A DNA stretch of 64,000 nucleotides. It comes from Polytrichum commune (Eukaryota; Streptophyta; Polytrichopsida; Polytrichales; Polytrichaceae). The notes below the pieces were generated by a model, which worked only from the letters and a program-made list of their open reading frames with translations, did not search any database and had not been told where the DNA came from. Shown here in pieces: positions 495 to 10,456 of this stretch. Numbering within the stretch: the stretch's first letter is position 1; each line of letters opens with the position of its first letter. Position numbers and translations under genes: made by a program. The stretch covers positions 52,655,554 through 52,719,553 of the forward strand of contig OX485803.1 in assembly GCA_950295325.1 (NCBI GenBank), read 5' to 3'.

Positions 495-2919
495 AGGAGG
501 GGGCTATGTAGTTGATTTTTTTGGCCGAAGCAGCCTAGTTACTTAATTTTGGTTCAAATTAGTGCCAAAACCTACTTTGGTTAGAGCATTAGTAAAGAAA
601 TGCTAGACCTAATCACTAAAACTCAAAAAGTAGGTTAGCCGAATTAAAAAGCAAAAATTAGGCTAATGACCTAAAGTTAGTGAGTAAAATTTGGACATGT
701 GTCAAATGACTAAAACCCTTGAAAACCTAGTTACGGGAAGACACATCCATTGGGTAGGGATTTGACGGGTAACTACCGAACCTACTCGAGAGGAAAAAAG
801 AGAGAGACGAGGGGAGAGCGGGGCATTATCAAGTTTGAGTTTTTTGAGCGAAAGAGAGAGCATTATTGAGTTTTGAGTTTTCGAGCGAGATACAATAAAT
901 TCCTCTCGTGAAGAGAGTGAATGTTATACTTTTGTTGAAATAAAAATTATTATTATTGCATTCTTCAAAGCTTTTGTGAATTGGGTGTGAAGCCCTTCTT
1001 TGTTTTGCGTGCAAGTGTCTAACATTTTTCTAGTTTTCGGCGCCGAAACGAAGAAGAAGCTTGGAAGCCAGAAGGTTATCCCATAACTATTGGGAAGATC
1101 AAGCAATGTAGTAATAAAAATCTTTGGACGAAGAGGCTAGTCAAGTACACTTGTCTATAAAAGTCCAACCCGAGAGCTCATCTTCCTAGAATTGAATCAT
1201 AAAACCTGCAAGTTGCAAAATACATGTGTTAATTTTTTGCACATCATAATACTTTGCATCATTTAAACACTACCATGGACATCCAACATTGCACAATTAT
1301 CACATAAATTCAATGCTTTAATTAAAGGAAACTGTGAAAGTTGTATAAATTAATTTTTAGATGTGAAGGCAATAAGATAAATTACAAAAACAAAAACATC
1401 AAAATTAAGGCTTATTCCGAAGAGAATTCCAAATCTAAATTAATGGAATAATAAGGAACCAAAAGATGAATGAATTAATTGAATTATAAAATTGATTAAA
1501 TAATATGAAAGAACCGAATGCTATAAAAAAAATATATATTTTTTAAAAATATGGCCTAAACATATTATCGAAGAATAATGGATCCGTAACCACCAACTTA
1601 GTTTGGGGTAAGGACCATACAATATACTGCCACACTAAATCTCACGGTAAATAAATGAGTGAAAACAACTCGTAGGGTTGTTACTACTGTATTTCATGAT
1701 CCGTTAAATTCACAAATTAATCAATGAGAGATTATGGATCTAGTCAGAGCGCCCTTGGCTCTGATGACATGTGGTTACTGGATACTCAAAAAGACTATTG
1801 TTGAGCCGTGACTCCCTGCATTGCGAAAAATCCCAAATGTCTAAACACATGGTTACTACTGGACAATGGTAGTGAGGGAGAGACTGAGCAAATGCATGTA
1901 CGGACTTGAGAGCCCCTGAACCACAAATATTGTAATTTAACCCTAAAATAACTCTAAAATGTTAGATTTACCTTAGGTTTGTGTGCACAAATCACATACA
2001 TAAACTATTTTGAACTATCAATTCACTTAAGAGTGACATCTAGATGAATAACCTGACACTCACTTAGTCTTCCCTGGGGTGTTTCATATAAAATTGAACC
2101 CAAGTAAAAATCCTATCTACATGGTTGTGAGCCAAATTTTTGGTCACTTAATAAACTATAGGCTTATAGTTGAACTTTGGATGAATTCGTCCTAGAGGAT
2201 GAATATAGTTAAACAATAGGCTAGAAGAACGGTTGTATCTTTTGGCGTGGCCTTAGGAGGTCCTAGGCGGTTACTGTAGCTATCGTCTACCTTCCCTCCC
2301 CGCCAAGCTAAGAGGGCTGGCGAAGAGGGAGAATGCAGACATTCACTGAGTAATTTTGAGCGCAAAACAAAAACTATAGGCTGTCTCCCTCAACTTGCAT
2401 TCGGGCGAGGTTCATTGTTTAACTATCTTCAGAGTAAAATTAGTGGTCGAAGCAGTGATTGCGAGACACTATTCGCTACTGAGGCTTATTGTTATCTTAC
2501 ATTTTTGAAGTTATGTGGAATGGCCGAGAAGGGTCGAACTATTATCTGTGTGTATTACTGTTATGTAAGCGTGAAGCATTGTCTGCTGTAGTTGGAGGAG
2601 TTAGCAACTGAGATCGAATCGAGAGGATTGAGGAAAAGGAAATAGAGTGGGAATTAGAAGTATGAGAATTGTTATAGAATGAAACTGCTATTGAGAGGAC
2701 AATCTCTTCGGACTGAGAGATAGAGATTGAAAGATAAGGGCGCCGTGGATTAGAGTTGAGTTAAACTATGGGCGATAAATCCTATTGGAACTCGAGCGGA
2801 ATTCCTATTCTTGGCCGAAGAAGGTGAAATGTGAATGAGCGAAGATGAGAGAATTATTGTATGAGGATAAGAGTGGAGTAGAACTATGAGCGGTTGTCCC
2901 TGGAGAGCAGGGCAGAGCC
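495..2919. other. Gene-free, repeat-derived left flank of the MULE
   Basis: No credible coding frame. About 780-970 is GA-rich followed by an AT-rich stretch and resembles the R/U5 part of a plant LTR. A 14-bp palindrome TTTCGGCGCCGAAA lies at about 1036-1049. Because the MULE at 2920-10446 duplicated its target, this DNA was originally continuous with 10457 onward. The similar GA-rich texture of the two sides fits one older repetitive element, but I could not define its ends. Confidence 0.4.
2910..2919. repeat. Left target-site duplication of the MULE
   Basis: GGGCAGAGCC, identical to 10447-10456. It abuts the inverted terminal repeat that starts at 2920. Confidence 0.8.
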
Positions 2920-3314
2920 GAGGGAAGCTAGCATGTGAGCGTTGAGCGGTGAGCAGTGAGCAGTGAGCGGTAACATGTGAGCAGTCAACAAAAAAATGAC
3001 CAATAATAGGATTTTAAAAGAAAATATTCCAATATAGTTGGATTATATATTATGAAAACAAAATTGTGGGAAAAAAAATGTATTGAACTCGGCCCTATTA
3101 CCATGGATTTCAGGAAGTTTGTTGATCCACGGTGATAGGCATTTTATTGACATGTCAAGTACGGCATTGAAATGTCGAGCACTTTATTGTGACAAACAAC
3201 TATTTAGTTGTACCATCAGTTTGTACTACATACATTTCATATGGATATACACAACTATTTCTATATATGTAAAAATGATGAATAATTGCGTCCATGCCCT
3301 TCACCCCTATGCCA

Positions 3315-6225
3315 CTACGCCTCTTCTGTAACACCCGCGAGCTCAAGAAGTCGCATCACCTCATTGTAGCTGAATGTCGGTGCATGAATGAACTTGTCAG
3401 TGGCGTAGTCAACCTTGCACAAATACCTGAACACGTAATACAAGTGCTTGCATGAAACCCACTGACCCTTTTTTCCCACTGCCAAAGACAACATTTTCAC
3501 AAAGTCCGGGCAAGTGCATTGTGGAATATCTGCAATGGAGACAAGGTATGTCTTCTCTTATTTGGAAACTATGGTTATGATGCATCCGTATCCAGGGTAT
3601 GGAATGGGAGTCACACCAACCACATAATATCCATCCATGTGTAATGCGCTCTCCCATTTATTCCTGTGCTCTGATAATGGTGCTGCCATGTTCCGTCGAA
3701 CTGCCTTGGAAAACCGTGTGTTTGGATGCGCATTTGGGTTTGGAGGAACACAGAAATGTGAACAAGGGATGGGGAGGTTTGTCATTGTTCTCAATCGACG
3801 ACGTGGTGACAGTGCCTCTTTCTGTTGCAGTTGAAACCCAACATCTTCCAATGCAAACACCTCCTCCCGTGTAAGGTTTGTACCAACCTTCACTGGCCAC
3901 ACCTTAGGGAGATTTGGCCAATCAAACACCCATTTCTTCTTGCTCCCCTTCACACATCGATTAATGTCATCTACACAAAACCAAAAATTTGTTGGAACAT
4001 GGTTGTTGGAACGGTATTCTTTTTTCATGCCTGTGTACTTTTCCCAACTTTAGCCCTACATGGATGTCCAGTATTGGCCTGCAATGCCTAACACTCTTTC
4101 TTGGACGGATAAGGCAATCGTGAAATATACCATTGGGATTCAGGACACTCTGACCCCAACACATTAGTGGTGTAAGACACCACATTCTCATCACGCTTGA
4201 AGGATTCATCTATGCGTGCCCTCGTTGACCTTGTATTAGGGTGAGGGATGGAGTAGTTCACTTTGTCAGGACGATGAGAATCATACTCAGATCCAGGTGG
4301 TAAGTCTAGTTTTCTCTTGGTTGATCCAAACAACTCAGAGCCCTCAAGTGCACAATTCCTTGTATTAAGATCCTCTGCCCCAGGGTATGACCTCATTGCC
4401 TCTGCAAGAAGCTTGGGATCACCAGTGTGTGCTGCAGCTTTGAGCTTCAATGATGCTTGATCTGGCCCTTTCCTTGAAGAACCCCCTTTAAGCCAATAAC
4501 GATAATTTGCGATCTGCATGAATGCGCGGATCATGTTATCCACGGTTGCCTCGTACAAGCATGTCATTTTGTTCCCTAATTGTTGTAGCCACTTGTTATG
4601 CACTGTTTCTGCTAGGTTGCAAGTTGGCATCTCAGCACACTGATCCAAAGCCAGATCCTGTAGTACATATTGGGAATATTTTTAGTTTTAAAAATTGAGA
4701 TGACACAACAATTTTATCAATAGTAGAGGAGGGGCACTTGTGTATAGGAGAAACTTACAATGAGCATGTGACCTCCCCATTGTCTATATCGATAATGCCA
4801 AAACCCCAACCATTCCGACAAGCTGTATATGCCCTCCTCATTGGTTGCCCCTGATGACAACCACCATGCCCGTATTACATGGTATTTGATGTTGGCGTCC
4901 TCCAAACTCTTGGCATCCTTGTAGTCTTTACAAAGTTGTTTGTGTTCATGTTGCAATGACGGTCGGATGTGTTTTTGTGTTATTTTATCCAAATTGGCAG
5001 ACCAATGAAAAAAACATGTACGTTCGCGACCCTCGAGGGGAACAGATGGGTCACCATCCCCGTAAATTTTCCTCACAACAATCCAATTTGCTTGGGCACT
5101 GTCCGCCATGAATCCTTTGAAATTGACATTGGGAACACCATTCTCCAACATGACAGCATTTAAATTTTCCCAAAAAATGGTTTGGGCCCGAGCATCCTCC
5201 GATTGCATATCACAACATGCTATTGTGAGAACCTTGCAATGTTTGCTATCGTAGACATGACATGCCATTGTAGTCCAGTCTCGTAATCGCTTCACATGGT
5301 CAAACATGATCTACGAATTTTCCATGTCTCCTCCATACAGCATGCGCTTCACCAAATCGACTCCGCTTCCAGCAAGATCCACAGACATCTTGAACACAAA
5401 GACCTTATCTTTGGATTGCCCTGGAAATCAACTATCATGCACATATTTGAACCCAGAGTGGTTTTTTAGCGCCATGATGCTATCCAAGGAACCCATTCCA
5501 CTACGAATGAAACGTTTGGAACCCGCCACAAAGTTCCTATAGTTAGGGGAAGCCAAAGTGGAGAATTTATCCATTACCACCTCCAAGGATGCTCTATGAA
5601 GATGGTTTTTTTCTCCTAGGAGTGGGGATTTGAGGATGTAATTAGCCAAAAATTGTTTATTGGCAGCCATAACAATAGCCGAGTTCTTTGCAGTTGGAGT
5701 TTTAGCCACCTCATTTGCCACACACTGGTAAGCCATGTCTAGTGACTCACGACACACTCCACTAGACACAGGATGGTTGTGAACACCCAAATGAATACAA
5801 ACACGGGACATGTTTGACGATTATGAATGCACGTATATAATTTTTGCATAGCAAACATCAAGACATATGGGAGCGGCATGACAAACCTTGCATTGAACCT
5901 TAGATTTCTCTGGTGGGTCTCTACCAACCATGAAAGGAGTGGGTGTAATACCGATCCATTCAGTACAGTTGGGAATTCCTCCATTTCATGAAAAATACTC
6001 ACATGAGTCGTTAGGACATTGGAGATGATCAATGCATGAAGACCTCCGAAAAGTCAAACCAAATTCATTTTGAATGTTTGTTGTTTTGGTTCTGCACCAG
6101 GCATGTCCGTCGTAAATCTTGTCCATGTCATCCATCGCCTTGCCATAACCATCTGGAACTCCAATCTTGACCGGTGGCAAAATGAAAAGGACATCCCCAT
6201 TGAATGAAGACGGCAGATACTTCAC
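3315..6225 (-). pseudogene. Degenerate MULE transposase (zinc finger, MULE core, SWIM)
   Basis: Reading from 6225 downward, a cysteine/histidine region ends in CIHLGVHNHP (about 5.78 kb), like the WRKY-GCM1-type finger of MULE and FAR1-like transposases. A MULE core follows at 5307-4759, with ADSAQAN and CFFHW motifs and a conserved EWLGFWHYRYRQWGG segment. A good donor at 4758/4757 joins in phase to an exon starting at 4657. The C-terminal SWIM finger is near 3318-3520 (CTCPDF ... WVSCKHLYYV). The frame is broken. Two in-frame stops (5428-5430 TGA, 5311-5313 TAG) stand where W would fit, and frame changes occur near 5.9 and 4.05 kb. This was the mobilising enzyme of the surrounding element and is now almost certainly inactive. 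Confidence 0.8.
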
Positions 6226-6356
6226 ATCCTCTATAGCAATGTTATCGAAGTCAATATTTGTGAGATCGGATTTGGATCTTCTATGACATTTGGTGATTTT
6301 GAGGGCTTCTAATACATGAACATCATATATGGATGACGTAGGATGAACATGAGGTT

Positions 6357-7985
6357 GCCTTGATATGTATGCTTGGAAGTTGCTGTGTGGTTTGCTTGAT
6401 GGGGTTGTAATGCATCAAAAAATTTCAATGAAGAAGCTTCAAGGTTGAAATTGAAGCTTCAAGGATTTCTAAAAGGTTGAGGGCACGGATTTCATGACCT
6501 TCACCTAGCCCTTGCTTTCATAAGGTGTTGAAAATAAGACATTAATGTCGACAACAACAAGAAATGAAGAAACAAGAAAAAACATCAAAATTTCAACAAA
6601 GTGAGTTCCGATTCCGAGACTAGGTTTTTTGGAATTTTAGGGTTTTCTTCTTGCCTCTTCATGTCTTGTTTTTGTTCTTCTTGCTGCACTTGTTTATCTT
6701 CATTACTTATATCTTGCCTTGATATGTATGCTTGGAAGTTGTTTTGTGATTTGCTTGATGGGTTTGTAGTGCATCAAAGAATTTCAATAAAGAAGCTTCA
6801 AGGATTTTTGAAACGTTGAGGGCATGAATTTCATCAACTTCCCCGAACCCTTGCTCTCATAAGGTGCTGAAAATGAGACATTAATATCCATAAAAACAAG
6901 AAATGAAGAAGCAAAAAAAAACATCAAAATTTCAACAAAGTGAGGTCCGGTTCCGAGACTATATTTTTTGGAATTTTAGGGTTTTCTTCTTGTTTCTTTA
7001 TGTCTTGTTTTTGTTCTTCTTGCTGAACTTGTTTATCTTCATTACTTGTATCTTGCCTTGATATGTATGCTTGGAAGTTGTTGTGTGGTTTGCTTGATGG
7101 GTTTGTAGTGCATCAAGGAATTTCAATAAAGAAGCTTCAAGGTTGAAATTGAAGCTTCAAGGATTTTTGAAAGGTTGAGGGCATGAATTTCATCAACTCC
7201 CCCGAACCCTTGCTCTTATAAGGTGCTAAAAATGAGACATTAATGTCCATAAAAACAAGAAATGAAGAAGCAAGAAAAAACATCAAAATTTCAACAAAGT
7301 GAGTTCCGGTTCCGAGACTAGGTTTTTTGGAATTTTAGGGTTTTTTTCTTACTTCTTCATGTCTTGTTTTTGTTCTTCTTGCTGAACTTGTTTATCTTCA
7401 TTACTTATATCTTGTCTTGATATGTATGCTTGGAAGTTGTTCTGTAGTTTGTTTGATGAGTTTGTAGTGCATCAAAGAATTTCAATGAAGAAGCTTCAAG
7501 GTTGAAATTGAAGCTTCAAGGATTTGTAAAAGGTTGAGGGCACAGATTTCATGACCTTCACCTAGCCCTTGCTTTCATAAGGTGCTTAAAATGAGACATT
7601 AATGTCCACAAAAACAAGAAATGAAGAAGCAAGAAAAAACATCAAAACTTCAACAAAATGAGTTCCGGTTCCAAGACTATGTTTTTTGGAATTTTAGGGT
7701 TTTCTTCTTGCCTCTACATGTCTTGTTTTTGTCTTTCTTCTTGCACTTGTTTATCTTCATTATTTGTATCTTGCCTTGATATGTATGCTTGGAAGTTGTT
7801 GTGTGGTTTGCTTGATGGGTTTGTAGTGCATCAAAGAATTTTAATGAAGAAGCTTCAAGGATTTCTAAAAGGTTGAGGGCACGGATTTCATGACCTTTAC
7901 CTAGCCCTTGCTTTTATAAGGTGTTTAAAATGAGACATTAATGTCGACAATAACAAGAAATGAAGAAACAAGAAAAAACCATTAA
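6357..7985. repeat. Tandem array, ~359-bp unit, between the two divergent MULE genes
   Basis: The phrase GCCTTGATATGTATGCTTGG, or a one-base variant, recurs at 6357, 6716, 7055, 7414 and 7773. The spacings are 359, 339, 359 and 359; the 339 copy lacks a 20-bp internal repeat. There are four full units and one partial unit. Each carries GAAGCTTCAAGG repeats and a TTTTTGGAATTTTAGGGTTTT segment. The array fills the space between the transposase 5' end and the methyltransferase-like gene, so it probably contains promoter sequence for one or both. The 72-residue frames inside it are repeats of the same unit and not genes. Confidence 0.9.
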
Positions 7986-8000
7986 AATGGAATTATGCCA

Positions 8001-9880
8001 CTTTGCAGTCTTGTCCATGGTTTATTGAGTGTCCTTTTACATTTTGTTCAAGTAAGGAGGAGGAGCTTAGGAAACAGTCATGTCCAATAGACTTGCCTCC
8101 TGATGATATTGACATTATAAATAATGAGGATGTGTGTGTGGTGAAAGTAGTCAAACCGGAAGGAAAAACTAAACGTAAGTGTGGTTTAAAGGTGGATGAG
8201 GGTAATTCAACACCTTCATCTCAAATTGGTATTATGGCACGCAATCCTAGTCCTTCAACATCTACACCTAGCACTCAAGGCAATGATGGACCTAAGTTTT
8301 TTCCTATTTCGAGATCACAACGATCTCACCATGTGTCAAAAATCATTGTCAATGGTGCTTCATCTTTTGGGCCAATTTCTTCAGTGATGTTGGAGAAGAT
8401 TTCAATACAAACATTGAGAATCCGTTAATGTTGAAAACATTCGAATTTATGAGTAAGGTTAGTATACTGAACATTGAACTTATTTTTATTTTATAAAATA
8501 TGGTGTTGATTTTGCAACATGCTTTGGACTTTAGTGTAATTATTGTTTTTTGGTTCTTTTAATAGGTGGGTTCCGGATGCAAGAGGAGGGTTTCTTCAGA
8601 GGATTGTAATTTTGGAGGTTTTGATCTTATTATTACAGATTTGCCAGAAGGTTTACGTGTACCTAACGTTTCATCTCCTCCACATGTAATCCCAGCTTGG
8701 AACGACTACAAGAGAAAGAACATTGAGGCTCTATTTGAATTTGCATGTGCATATCTCACAGATGATGGCCCTTTGTTTTTGTTTATCCCTGAGATGAAAG
8801 ATGTCAGAGACGATGTAATGACATTCGCAACCTCCTATGATTTTGTATTGCGAAAAAATTGGCGGGGCTTCAACGAGTTGCCTTTGTGTTATCCACTTGA
8901 CACGTCGTTGACGGTATACATTAAATTCTATTATTTATTACTTCGATTTCTACTTTTTTATTGTATTACAATGTTCTCCTCAATTTTGCAATCGATTCCC
9001 CTGCTAAAGATTTTCTTGTGGTTTATAGACTCGTCGTTTCCGCATCATGTTGTTTCTTCGTTCTACTCCCAAGTCAGAGTTTGTTTTTAAAAAAAAAAAC
9101 GCAAGTACTGAGGTGAATGTGGAGGCCTTGGATGTGTTCTTCAATCTCACATCGGCGAGCATTCAACCCATGAATGGAAAAGTGCCATGGAGAGGTGGTA
9201 GGGAGAAGGACTCGGAATCTATGCAAATCTTAATAGAGGCTTTAACAACCCCCGCATCGGTTGTCCTCGATGCTTACGCATCTACAGGTCGGTTTATTTC
9301 TTAGTCAAGGACCTATTATATCATCTCTCAATGTGTTTTAATGAAGTCACTATAGTGTTGTCAGTGGTTTTTGCAAATTAACTAACATTGCAACATTTCA
9401 TTGGCAGGTGCATCTATTCATGCTTGCAGAAATAGTGGCCGCCATCTAGTTGCATACGAGGAAGATTCTATATTGTTTGATGCTATTCTATCCCCATTAA
9501 GTGATCCATTACCAACTACTAGTGTAGGTGGATTTATGCCACATAATGCCTCCATCGATTCCGATGAAGAGCTTGTTAAGAAGGTTGCGAGAAAAAATCG
9601 ATTGAGAACGTAAGTTTTTAATTTCTCCATATTGTTTGCTAACTTGGCCTCCAATGTCTGGTATGTGTGCACTAGAAGTCTAACACTTATGATTTTATTT
9701 CGCAGAAAAAAGAACAACATGATTTCATCTCCGAATATGGGTTTGCCAATATATGCTGAAAATGTTGCTCAAATCATGGCAAGATCAGTGACGCCAACAC
9801 CTCGCCGTATGTCTGCACGGATTGCCCGTAACCCGTACGTAGATTATGAGGCGATTCAATACGATGATCTAAATGATTAA
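8001..9880 (+). CDS. Beta-class amino-methyltransferase-like protein, spliced, inside the MULE
   Basis: Exons 8566-8913, 9029-9287, 9408-9609 and 9706-9880 join perfectly in phase through GT-AG introns to a TAA stop. An upstream exon (from an acceptor at about 8008 to 8400-8456) carries a Ser/Thr-rich segment. Its junction is unclear: the frame ending FEFMSK fits exon 2, but the longer upstream frame is shifted by one base near 8370, so a frameshift or an extra splice is needed. No start ATG is visible. Exon 2 has FDLIITDLPEG (motif IV position, degenerate DPPY). Exons 3-4 have PWRGGREKDSESMQILIEAL, then VVLDAYASTG (motif I, FxGxG-like), then GRHLVAYEED (motif II). Motif IV before motif I is the permuted order of beta-class N4/N6 DNA methyltransferases. 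The tail is basic (RRMSARIARNP). Catalysis is uncertain because the DPPY motif is altered. Confidence 0.65.
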
Positions 9881-10446
9881 GCTAAATTAGTTTAGGGACA
9901 TTTAGGTAGTTGTCAATACCATCCACTATGTATTTGATTGGATTGGATATGATTGGATTGGATATTATTTGGTTGGATGTGTGACAAAGTTTGGATTCAT
10001 CATTTTAAATTACCACCATTAGTGAACATTGAATTGTGTGAGCAATTTCCTCTTATTCCTGAACCCTATATCCTAAAATTTAATTACCTCATTCAATTCA
10101 TTTCTCAAACTTACATGAATTTTAGAAATACAGTTCAAAGCAATACTTGGAAGATGCTTGCATTGATATTACAATTGGATGTTGAATCCAACAACAATAT
10201 TAAAATTCTTTTTCAAACCCTCAAGCCAAGCTTGCAGTTGTTGAATTTTAAAATAGAGTTAGACATTCATGAGGATAATTACATTTTTTTAACTCTCCAT
10301 TAATTTTATTTTAGAAAAAAATTATATTATTTATGCCAAAATACCACGGATATAGGGTACTAGTGCGTGTATTTCCAAAAATCTTTCCTCACTCACCGTT
10401 CACAAGTTACTGCTCATCGCTCACCGCTCACATGATAGCACTCCCC
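9881..10446. other. 3' flank of the methyltransferase-like gene and right end of the MULE
   Basis: AT-rich, with no convincing gene; the 116-codon frame at 9953-10303 shows no domain. The last ~60 bp (from about 10385) form the right terminal inverted repeat, with repeated CTCACCG/GCTCA motifs. Confidence 0.5.
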
Positions 10447-10456
10447 GGGCAGAGCC
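10447..10456. repeat. Right target-site duplication of the MULE
   Basis: GGGCAGAGCC, identical to 2910-2919. It follows the right terminal repeat that ends at 10446. Confidence 0.8.

Follow-up and report, generated by a model that had tools for sequence, protein, structure and literature searches.

An exchangeable methyltransferase-like second gene in a large family of MULE-like transposons of the moss Polytrichum commune, seen from a decayed copy

What is a gene of methyltransferase type doing inside a plant transposon? The question is raised by an element in a stretch of 64,000 nucleotides from the moss Polytrichum commune, contig C1 (OX485803.1) 52655554-52719553 of a 407.8-Mb assembly in 64 contigs; the whole stretch is called the window here, and its positions serve as coordinates of the element. 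A preliminary description of the window had placed a minus-strand transposase gene of a Mutator-like element (MULE) and a spliced plus-strand DNA amino-methyltransferase-like gene between firm ends, and had likened the second protein to VANC of the VANDAL transposons. The element spans exactly 2920-10446 (7,527 bp), limits set by a perfect 10-bp duplication, GGGCAGAGCC, on both sides. When direct repeats of 8-11 bp at least 3 kb apart were ranked between 2500 and 11000 by a combined score for repeat and inverted ends, omitting words that occur more than 30 times or are built from fewer than three letters, this pair came first, and the inverted arms (2918-2971 and 10395-10448) are 54 nt long and 78% complementary, so the firm ends are upheld. 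As set out below, this element is one decayed representative of a large family of MULE-like transposons in the moss; the second gene belongs regularly to such elements and is exchanged among them.

Searched against its own genome, the transposase core has at least 150 matches (150 of 1,825 candidates scored) and the methyltransferase-like protein of the window at least 203 exon matches (122 of 2,437 candidates scored); all family counts given here are lower bounds. For 70 of the 150 listed transposase places, a listed second gene stands head-to-head at no more than 16 kb, the median distance being 6.4 kb, while random placement yields 0.6 such pairs on average and 4 at most in 500 runs, and none of the 150 has a listed second gene solely in another arrangement. 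The second-gene places entering this count were 85, with exon matches merged by place and small contigs excluded, plus 136, with second matches at the same place excluded. Four of the 80 transposase places without a listed partner were opened, and three proved to carry the second gene in the same head-to-head arrangement; in the fourth none was found in 8 kb. The gene is present also in deep clades, where transposase identity is 57-64%. Many homologs of the second gene thus adjoin transposases in units with inverted ends, and other copies of the element carry it, including those three places, so that neither of the outcomes named as refuting in the preliminary description occurred.

Eleven elements were examined at both ends. 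Matching inverted ends with duplications of 9-11 bp, the combination of 8-11 bp duplication and long inverted termini expected of MULEs, were found in eight of them (the window element, C5_19.3, C4_24.0, C7_26.8, C1_64.5, C5_18.2, C3_57.2, and C3_18.6); the eight duplications all differ, and the inverted ends of C3_57.2 are weak at the extreme tips. No convincing ends were found for C6_11.8, C3_58.8, and C4_3.4 in the stretches examined. Tandem heptads of the form RTGAGCR, or close variants, occur at one or both ends of all eight end-resolved elements. The transposase carries a SWIM zinc finger (CxC...CKH) at its C-terminus in all four clades tested, with Pfam SWIM scores of 21.9 bits in a deep relative, the sole one above the 19.6-bit cut-off, and 16.7, 14.7 (window), and 10.9 in the others. 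The MULE domain PF10551 gives no match to this transposase lineage at E values up to 10, although 142 other places in the genome do match it. Profile-profile comparison with nine PF10551 MULEs gave E 0.17 where an unrelated control gave 0.16, and at that control-level E the alignment pairs the MADSAQANWNAV...C..HW block with the MULE D...A..I...C..H block.

One clade, whose transposase has an open first frame of 742 residues (the 742 clade), accounts for 62 listed copies that are 89-100% alike with a 714-residue query, and 26 of these have no stop in the matched stretch. With at least 62 copies so similar, transposition must have been recent, and open transposase frames exist. A transposase-like N-terminal frame was also seen at L082:6985-8001 (minus strand), upstream of the transposase at C5:1352444; it probably belongs to a nested or neighboring element.

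The two genes do not share one history. Among 23 elements chosen for having both genes found (253 pairs), identity of the transposase core and identity of the exon with motif IV correlate poorly, with a Pearson coefficient of 0.36. The window element and C5_18.2 have transposase cores 97% alike and second genes 49% alike, and C1_64.5 and C6_11.8 are 97% and 32% alike, respectively; C2_49.5 and C2_12.3 show the reverse, with 74% in the transposase core and 93% in the second gene. At the DNA level, the window element matches C7_26.8 at 69% over the transposase half and at 92% from the methyltransferase half to the right end, and it matches C5_18.2 at 92-95% in the compared stretches up to the start of the tandem repeat, beyond which only pieces of 68-81% align. 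Recombination in the intergenic stretch accounts for both discordances. Transposase and second-gene histories are discordant, and elements exchange the second gene.

Seven of eight elements hold strong, element-specific tandem repeats between the genes or in introns, and 9 of 17 arrays, belonging to 6 of 10 elements, have a repeat unit whose inverted repeat exceeds those of nearly all shuffled sequences; for these repeat and palindrome scans the window element was taken without the last 10 bp of its right end. Repeated palindromes with arms of at least 8 nt occur in 8 of 15 element stretches: TTTGGGTCGNNCGACCCAAA ten times and TGTGCGTTAACGCACA six times in C1_64.5, GGTGGCCGTTAACGGCCACC six times in C6_11.8, GTTTCGGTACCGAAAC seven and four times in C3_58.8 and C4_3.4 (second genes 97% alike), TTGTGCGCNNGCGCACAA four times in C1_9.66, ATTCTGCANNTGCAGAAT three times in C5_18.2, CTGTCGGATCCGACAG six times beside a second palindrome in C3_57.2, and GTGGTCGGNNCCGACCAC ten times in C3_18.6. 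Where present, palindrome arrays vary from one second-gene clade to another and are mostly the same inside a clade; none of the long motifs that were counted across the stretches turned up in an element with a different second gene. C1_64.5, C6_11.8, C3_58.8, C4_3.4, and C1_9.66 have transposase cores 89-97% alike and four second genes (27-41% alike), and they carry four different palindromes, C3_58.8 and C4_3.4 sharing both second gene and palindrome. The five elements with a window-type second gene (85-92% alike) hold GAAGCTTC 8, 4, 6, 2, and 5 times, against 0-1 times in the other ten stretches, and have transposases of two types (three and two elements) that are 72-79% alike between types. 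The arrays, where present, therefore tend to go with the second gene rather than with the transposase.

Genome-wide counts and an intron add to this pattern. GGTTTCGGTACCGAAACC occurs 41 times in the genome, in 19 clusters (its reversed control 0 times), and 10 of the clusters have a listed second gene at a distance of at most 8 kb, each of the 10 standing on its upstream side (0.07 expected). In the 742 clade, three of three copies carry their own clade's motif within the transposase intron, at 2-4 full sites each (the second genes of the two extra copies being known from the listing alone), and the sister C6_11.8, which has another second gene, has none there, though the DNA flanking on both sides is 86-95% alike. 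The same intron also contains, beside the palindrome array, an incomplete repeat of the next exon (NLAETVHNK), as seen at L008:5340-5405 with the array that follows and in L100 and L101. A CpG is found in each half of eight of the nine distinct repeated long palindromes, a feature noticed post hoc and present in 16% of 8-mers.

A second gene that diverges and is exchanged, motifs in intergenic and intron DNA that are specific to its clade, and end heptads that stay constant together make an accessory DNA-binding factor the most likely of the readings considered. We tentatively favor, at somewhat less than even confidence, a sequence-specific factor that is VANC-like in its working and is not an active methylase. 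The methyltransferase fold would then serve as a DNA-reading, perhaps AdoMet (S-adenosylmethionine)-sensing, scaffold instead of an enzyme; the protein would bind, probably in dimeric form, the arrays of palindromes in the element that encodes it, and binding might protect the activity of the divergent promoters and of the transposase gene from host silencing, or aid transposition. Exchange of gene and array together would change the address. Anti-silencing as the purpose is something that we infer from the likeness to VANC. A more far-reaching version, which we regard as speculative, is that a phage-type ParB/methyltransferase fusion turned pseudo-methyltransferase reads clade-private, mostly CpG-containing palindromes and protects or awakens the DNA that holds them, gene and array forming an exchangeable address cassette that is re-targeted by recombination.

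Several observations weigh against a protein reading its own arrays. Seven of the 15 element stretches have no repeated palindrome with arms of at least 8 (five of these are window-type and carry GAAGCTTC); one long palindrome lacks CpG and is unshared within its clade; and the C5_18.2 palindrome occurs once in C4_10.8 and not at all in C7_13.9 and C4_44.2, despite similar second genes, an uneven sharing that speaks against a strict rule of motif to second gene. Nine of the 19 GGTTTCGGTACCGAAACC clusters have no listed second gene nearby. The AdoMet-site residues D...TG are retained, which would suit an enzyme too, and dN/dS (the ratio of nonsynonymous to synonymous substitution rates) is near 1 in most pairs of the window clade and between L016 and L017. 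Above all, the recombination points mostly leave the arrays on the side of the second gene, so that much of their association can be put down to linkage alone.

Linkage is accordingly the main alternative: the arrays would be mere minisatellites that travel with the second gene and are not its binding sites. We consider this possible, if on the unlikely side. Most arrays do lie between the two genes, elements with a C5_18.2-type second gene share no palindrome array, and the 20-bp palindrome TTTGGGTCGNNCGACCCAAA of C1_64.5 is found 9,731 times in the genome (control 0), often at spacings of 32-78 bp and also outside listed elements. The places of TTTGGGTCGNNCGACCCAAA listed form six clusters, and by eye three of the six are near a listed transposase or second gene; the clusters of about 10 kb with neither listed are C1:616089-626109, C1:1180628-1190830, and C1:2115506-2125785. 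Less expected of minisatellites are the array that one clade has inside its transposase intron, where the number of sites varies and the sister has none, and the CpG in each half of nearly all distinct long palindromes.

The second protein might instead be a transposition factor, comparable to the products of mudrB and yeast mutB, that acts in assembly or integration and has nothing to do with silencing. Its regular pairing with the transposase agrees with such a role, palindromic sites fit structural DNA binding, and MULEs with additional open frames of this kind figure in the account of PMC6446971. A partner that has to fit one transposase would be less expected to pass between transposase lineages or to have clade-specific arrays, and the end heptads, which are likely the transposase sites, stay constant while the palindromes change. 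We judge this explanation unlikely, although it and the variant methylase considered next are serious rivals.

The sequence of the protein bears on a further possibility, that of an enzyme. In fuller second proteins, compared by translation across four clades, the exons are conserved and follow one order: first a ParB-like candidate exon and an exon with HV...LVH.L.R, then a helical stretch and a linker rich in Cys, and finally the methyltransferase-like domain, followed by a tail. PF01555 (N6_N4_Mtase) matches the window exons at E 9e-5 and 22.9 bits, below its 26.7-bit cut-off, which relatives in the genome exceed, and six of six members match it (best E 3e-9). A profile of the domain finds the solved DpnA (1e-10, both halves collinear) and CcrM (3.5e-6, profile positions 17-226), which by sequence profile gives it a beta-class fold with motif order IV, X-I-II-III. 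A profile search of viral contigs with the methyltransferase alignment returned just three distant places. DpnA itself, searched against the moss assembly, matches contigs C10 and C12 alone. Three of the five PF01555 matches in the assembly, including the best, also lie in open frames on these small contigs (C10:4592-5212, C10:15117-15353, and C12:29682-30278), which look like bacterial contamination; the other two both lie in this transposon family, in an exon-by-exon search that a spliced host gene could escape.

The first exon of the fuller proteins has the pattern LCR...VRP.L..D...L...F..GY ... MFF(V/I)(Y/W)(D/E)GNHR..AW ... AMHD(I/M)N, with GNH in seven of seven proteins and GNHR in six. 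GNHR is taken here to be the GxxR P-motif of ParB, on what we assume to be the order of ParB-like boxes, and the exon is a candidate ParB-like domain. A ParB-like PHROG family is matched weakly by three of the seven proteins (best E 0.08); none matches Pfam ParB, no ParB is among the solved structures matched by the profile, and a profile search of viral and genome contig collections with the ParB-like alignment found no relative.

The catalytic tetrad of beta-class enzymes has the canonical form (D/N/S)PP(Y/F/W). DPPY of DpnA aligns with D-L-P-E of the moss proteins, and not one of the 33 second-gene copies read has a canonical tetrad, which rules out an active canonical methylase as first choice and makes the enzymatic sense of the original label doubtful. 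Motif IV reads DLPE in 14 copies, DIPE in seven, DLPK in three, and nine other forms once each (hence D[L/I]PE in 21 of 33); the single 742-clade copy read has QFPD. The first proline is replaced in all 33, and the fourth residue is non-aromatic in 32 and acidic in 28. Loss of catalysis is therefore likely, as far as the tetrad tells. An adenine-N6 or cytosine-N4 methyltransferase that stays active with a variant site, marking element DNA so that it reads as permitted, would be compatible with several features: motifs IV, X, and I-III are collinear with those of solved enzymes, the tetrad D and second P are mostly retained, as are D....TG of motif I and a GRH..A.E stretch in most copies, and one copy, L016, reads DIPY. 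In addition, a 140-kb IMG/VR contig encodes (L083:2968-3672) a methyltransferase with DIPD as motif IV and an otherwise canonical motif I, indicating that such replacement of the tetrad is not unique to the moss. Given the replaced residues, and the DIPD that L017, the near-identical sister of L016, has at this place, an active enzyme seems improbable.

Selection has acted on the second gene in one compared pair. L005 and C3_57.2, with proteins 93% alike, have dN/dS of 0.21, 0.19, 0.10, 0.16, and 0.13 in five segments (56 nonsynonymous and 92 synonymous changes; P 3e-25 under neutrality); each has a stop inside an exon, so that purifying selection acted on their ancestors. Pooled values mix decayed copies and were not used: from 105 pairs per gene at the outset, after pairs without usable dS or with fewer than 150 sites had been dropped, 55 transposase pairs have a median of 0.34 and 103 methyltransferase pairs a median of 0.49, with 21 at or above 1. 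Chance capture of a host methyltransferase gene by a single MULE (a Pack-MULE) can be rejected as barely credible, for although MULEs frequently take up host genes according to PMC6446971 and PMC13317346, the listed pairs far exceed random placement, the gene extends to deep clades, it has been under purifying selection, and the PF01555 matches that the exon-by-exon search gave beyond the two small contigs both fall in this family.

The transposase gene of the copy in the window falls into six open blocks; stops separate the first three, which share one frame, and the rest are in two further frames. The stops and frame breaks reported earlier are thus real, except that one break corresponds to an intron retained in intact relatives. 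The four methyltransferase-like exons join in phase at GT-AG borders into 327 residues and a stop, at the coordinates first given. The ParB-like and helical front part is missing, with a tandem repeat in its place, and the second gene is a decaying, 5'-truncated derivative. Its methyltransferase exons have dN/dS of 1.55 against L003, 0.95 against L004, 1.00 against L002, and 0.52 against L010. Across seven pairs of the window clade the range is 0.52-1.55, the three values below 0.6 all including L010 (P 0.015-0.025), and L016 against L017 is near 1 on 14 changes. The window copy mostly drifts, and selection on it, as the in-phase exons had hinted, is rejected. The features of the element are collected in Table 1. 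Apart from this family, three LEAFY-like loci were encountered (L088, L089, and C7:8635861-8637757), with a stop in the scanned frame in two of six listed exon matches. The best match of a LEAFY C-domain from this genome among solved structures is chain 4bhk (E 2e-100, the next 2e-81), the Physcomitrium protein, which points to a moss or a close neighbor of mosses as host; the seven large contigs of the assembly would agree with n = 7, the number in Polytrichaceae.

Table 1. Features of the window element, in window positions
Feature	Position	Strand	Basis
Left target-site duplication GGGCAGAGCC	2910..2919	.	direct repeat
Left inverted terminus, tandem RTGAGCR-type heptads	2920..2971	+	inverted-repeat search
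Transposase SWIM-type zinc finger block	3315..3557	-	Pfam SWIM 14.7 bits, cut-off 19.6
Transposase C-terminal block	3558..4049	-	open-frame comparison
Transposase block after intron of relatives	4088..4681	-	open-frame comparison with relatives
Transposase core block	4717..5310	-	at least 150 matches in own genome
Transposase block 2	5428..5820	-	open-frame comparison
Transposase N-terminal block, broken gene	5986..6414	-	matches same part of 742-residue open frame
Intergenic tandem repeat, steps 339-359 bp	6355..8050	+	holds 8 of 8 GAAGCTTC sites of the element
Linker-exon remnant (CPWFIECP..FC), frame change	7964..8445	+	single open frame in C7_26.8 copy
Methyltransferase-like exon, motif IV (DLIITDLPEG)	8566..8913	+	alignment and splice joins
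Methyltransferase-like exon, motif X and start of motif I (WRGGREK..VVLDAYAST)	9029..9287	+	alignment to solved DpnA
Methyltransferase-like exon, remaining motifs I-III (G.SIHACRNSGRHLVAYEED)	9408..9609	+	alignment and splice joins
Last exon with stop codon	9706..9880	+	splice joins
Right inverted terminus	10395..10446	-	inverted-repeat search
Right target-site duplication GGGCAGAGCC	10447..10456	.	direct repeat

Transposon answers to DNA methylation are known in detail for few proteins, and the family amounts to a natural experiment, in which near-identical transposases are combined with differing second genes and palindrome arrays and many transposase frames are open; tools for Physcomitrium could be borrowed for this moss host. 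Should the second protein read or guard clade-specific sites, the evolution of methylases would be tied to transposon counter-defense, and the pseudo-methyltransferase cassette, if true, would be a second and independent invention of VANC-like anti-silencing, made from a methylase. Should it still methylate, a eukaryotic mobile element would itself be writing N6-methyladenine or N4-methylcytosine.

The second protein resembles DpnA and CcrM (PF01555) in fold and in the motif order IV ... X-I-II/III, and differs from them in its D[L/I]PE or similar in place of a DPPY-type tetrad, in its long front part, and in its residence on a eukaryotic transposon. Fusions of a ParB-CTPase with an N6_N4-methyltransferase are described from phages in PMC12704722; there, as in the moss, a domain with GxxR (GNHR in the candidate ParB-like exon) precedes a PF01555-type domain on mobile DNA, whereas in the moss the ParB assignment is weak, a helical region and linker separate the domains, and the gene is eukaryotic and spliced. 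Among DNA transposons, MULEs with one or more extra genes such as mudrB, mutB, vanB, and Ulp1/KIU offer a general parallel (PMC6446971; PMC13317346), but none of the extra genes named there is methyltransferase-like, the word methyltransferase does not occur in the main texts of these two papers on extra MULE genes, and no MULE with a methyltransferase-like gene is described in the open-licence literature searched.

The closest likeness is to VANDAL and VANC, as far as the descriptions in PMC5735166 and PMC10398659 go, and it is one of working, set by those descriptions and involving no claim of relationship to VANC. The short motif bound by VANC lies in variable tandem repeats of introns and upstream regions, and the elements acted upon differ among related VANC proteins (PMC5735166). 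The moss elements likewise are of MULE type with a transposase and a second, fast-diverging gene; their tandem repeats, intergenic and intronic, vary and hold a short clade-specific motif, and related elements would differ in specificity. To this extent the analogy of the preliminary description has gained some support, from gene swapping and from arrays linked to the second gene; that the moss protein counters host methylation is still conjecture. Unlike VANC, for which the account in PMC5735166 gives no such description, the moss protein has a methyltransferase fold, and unlike those of VANDAL, the moss motifs are palindromic, with CpG present in most of the long ones, and lie in elements that have clear inverted ends.

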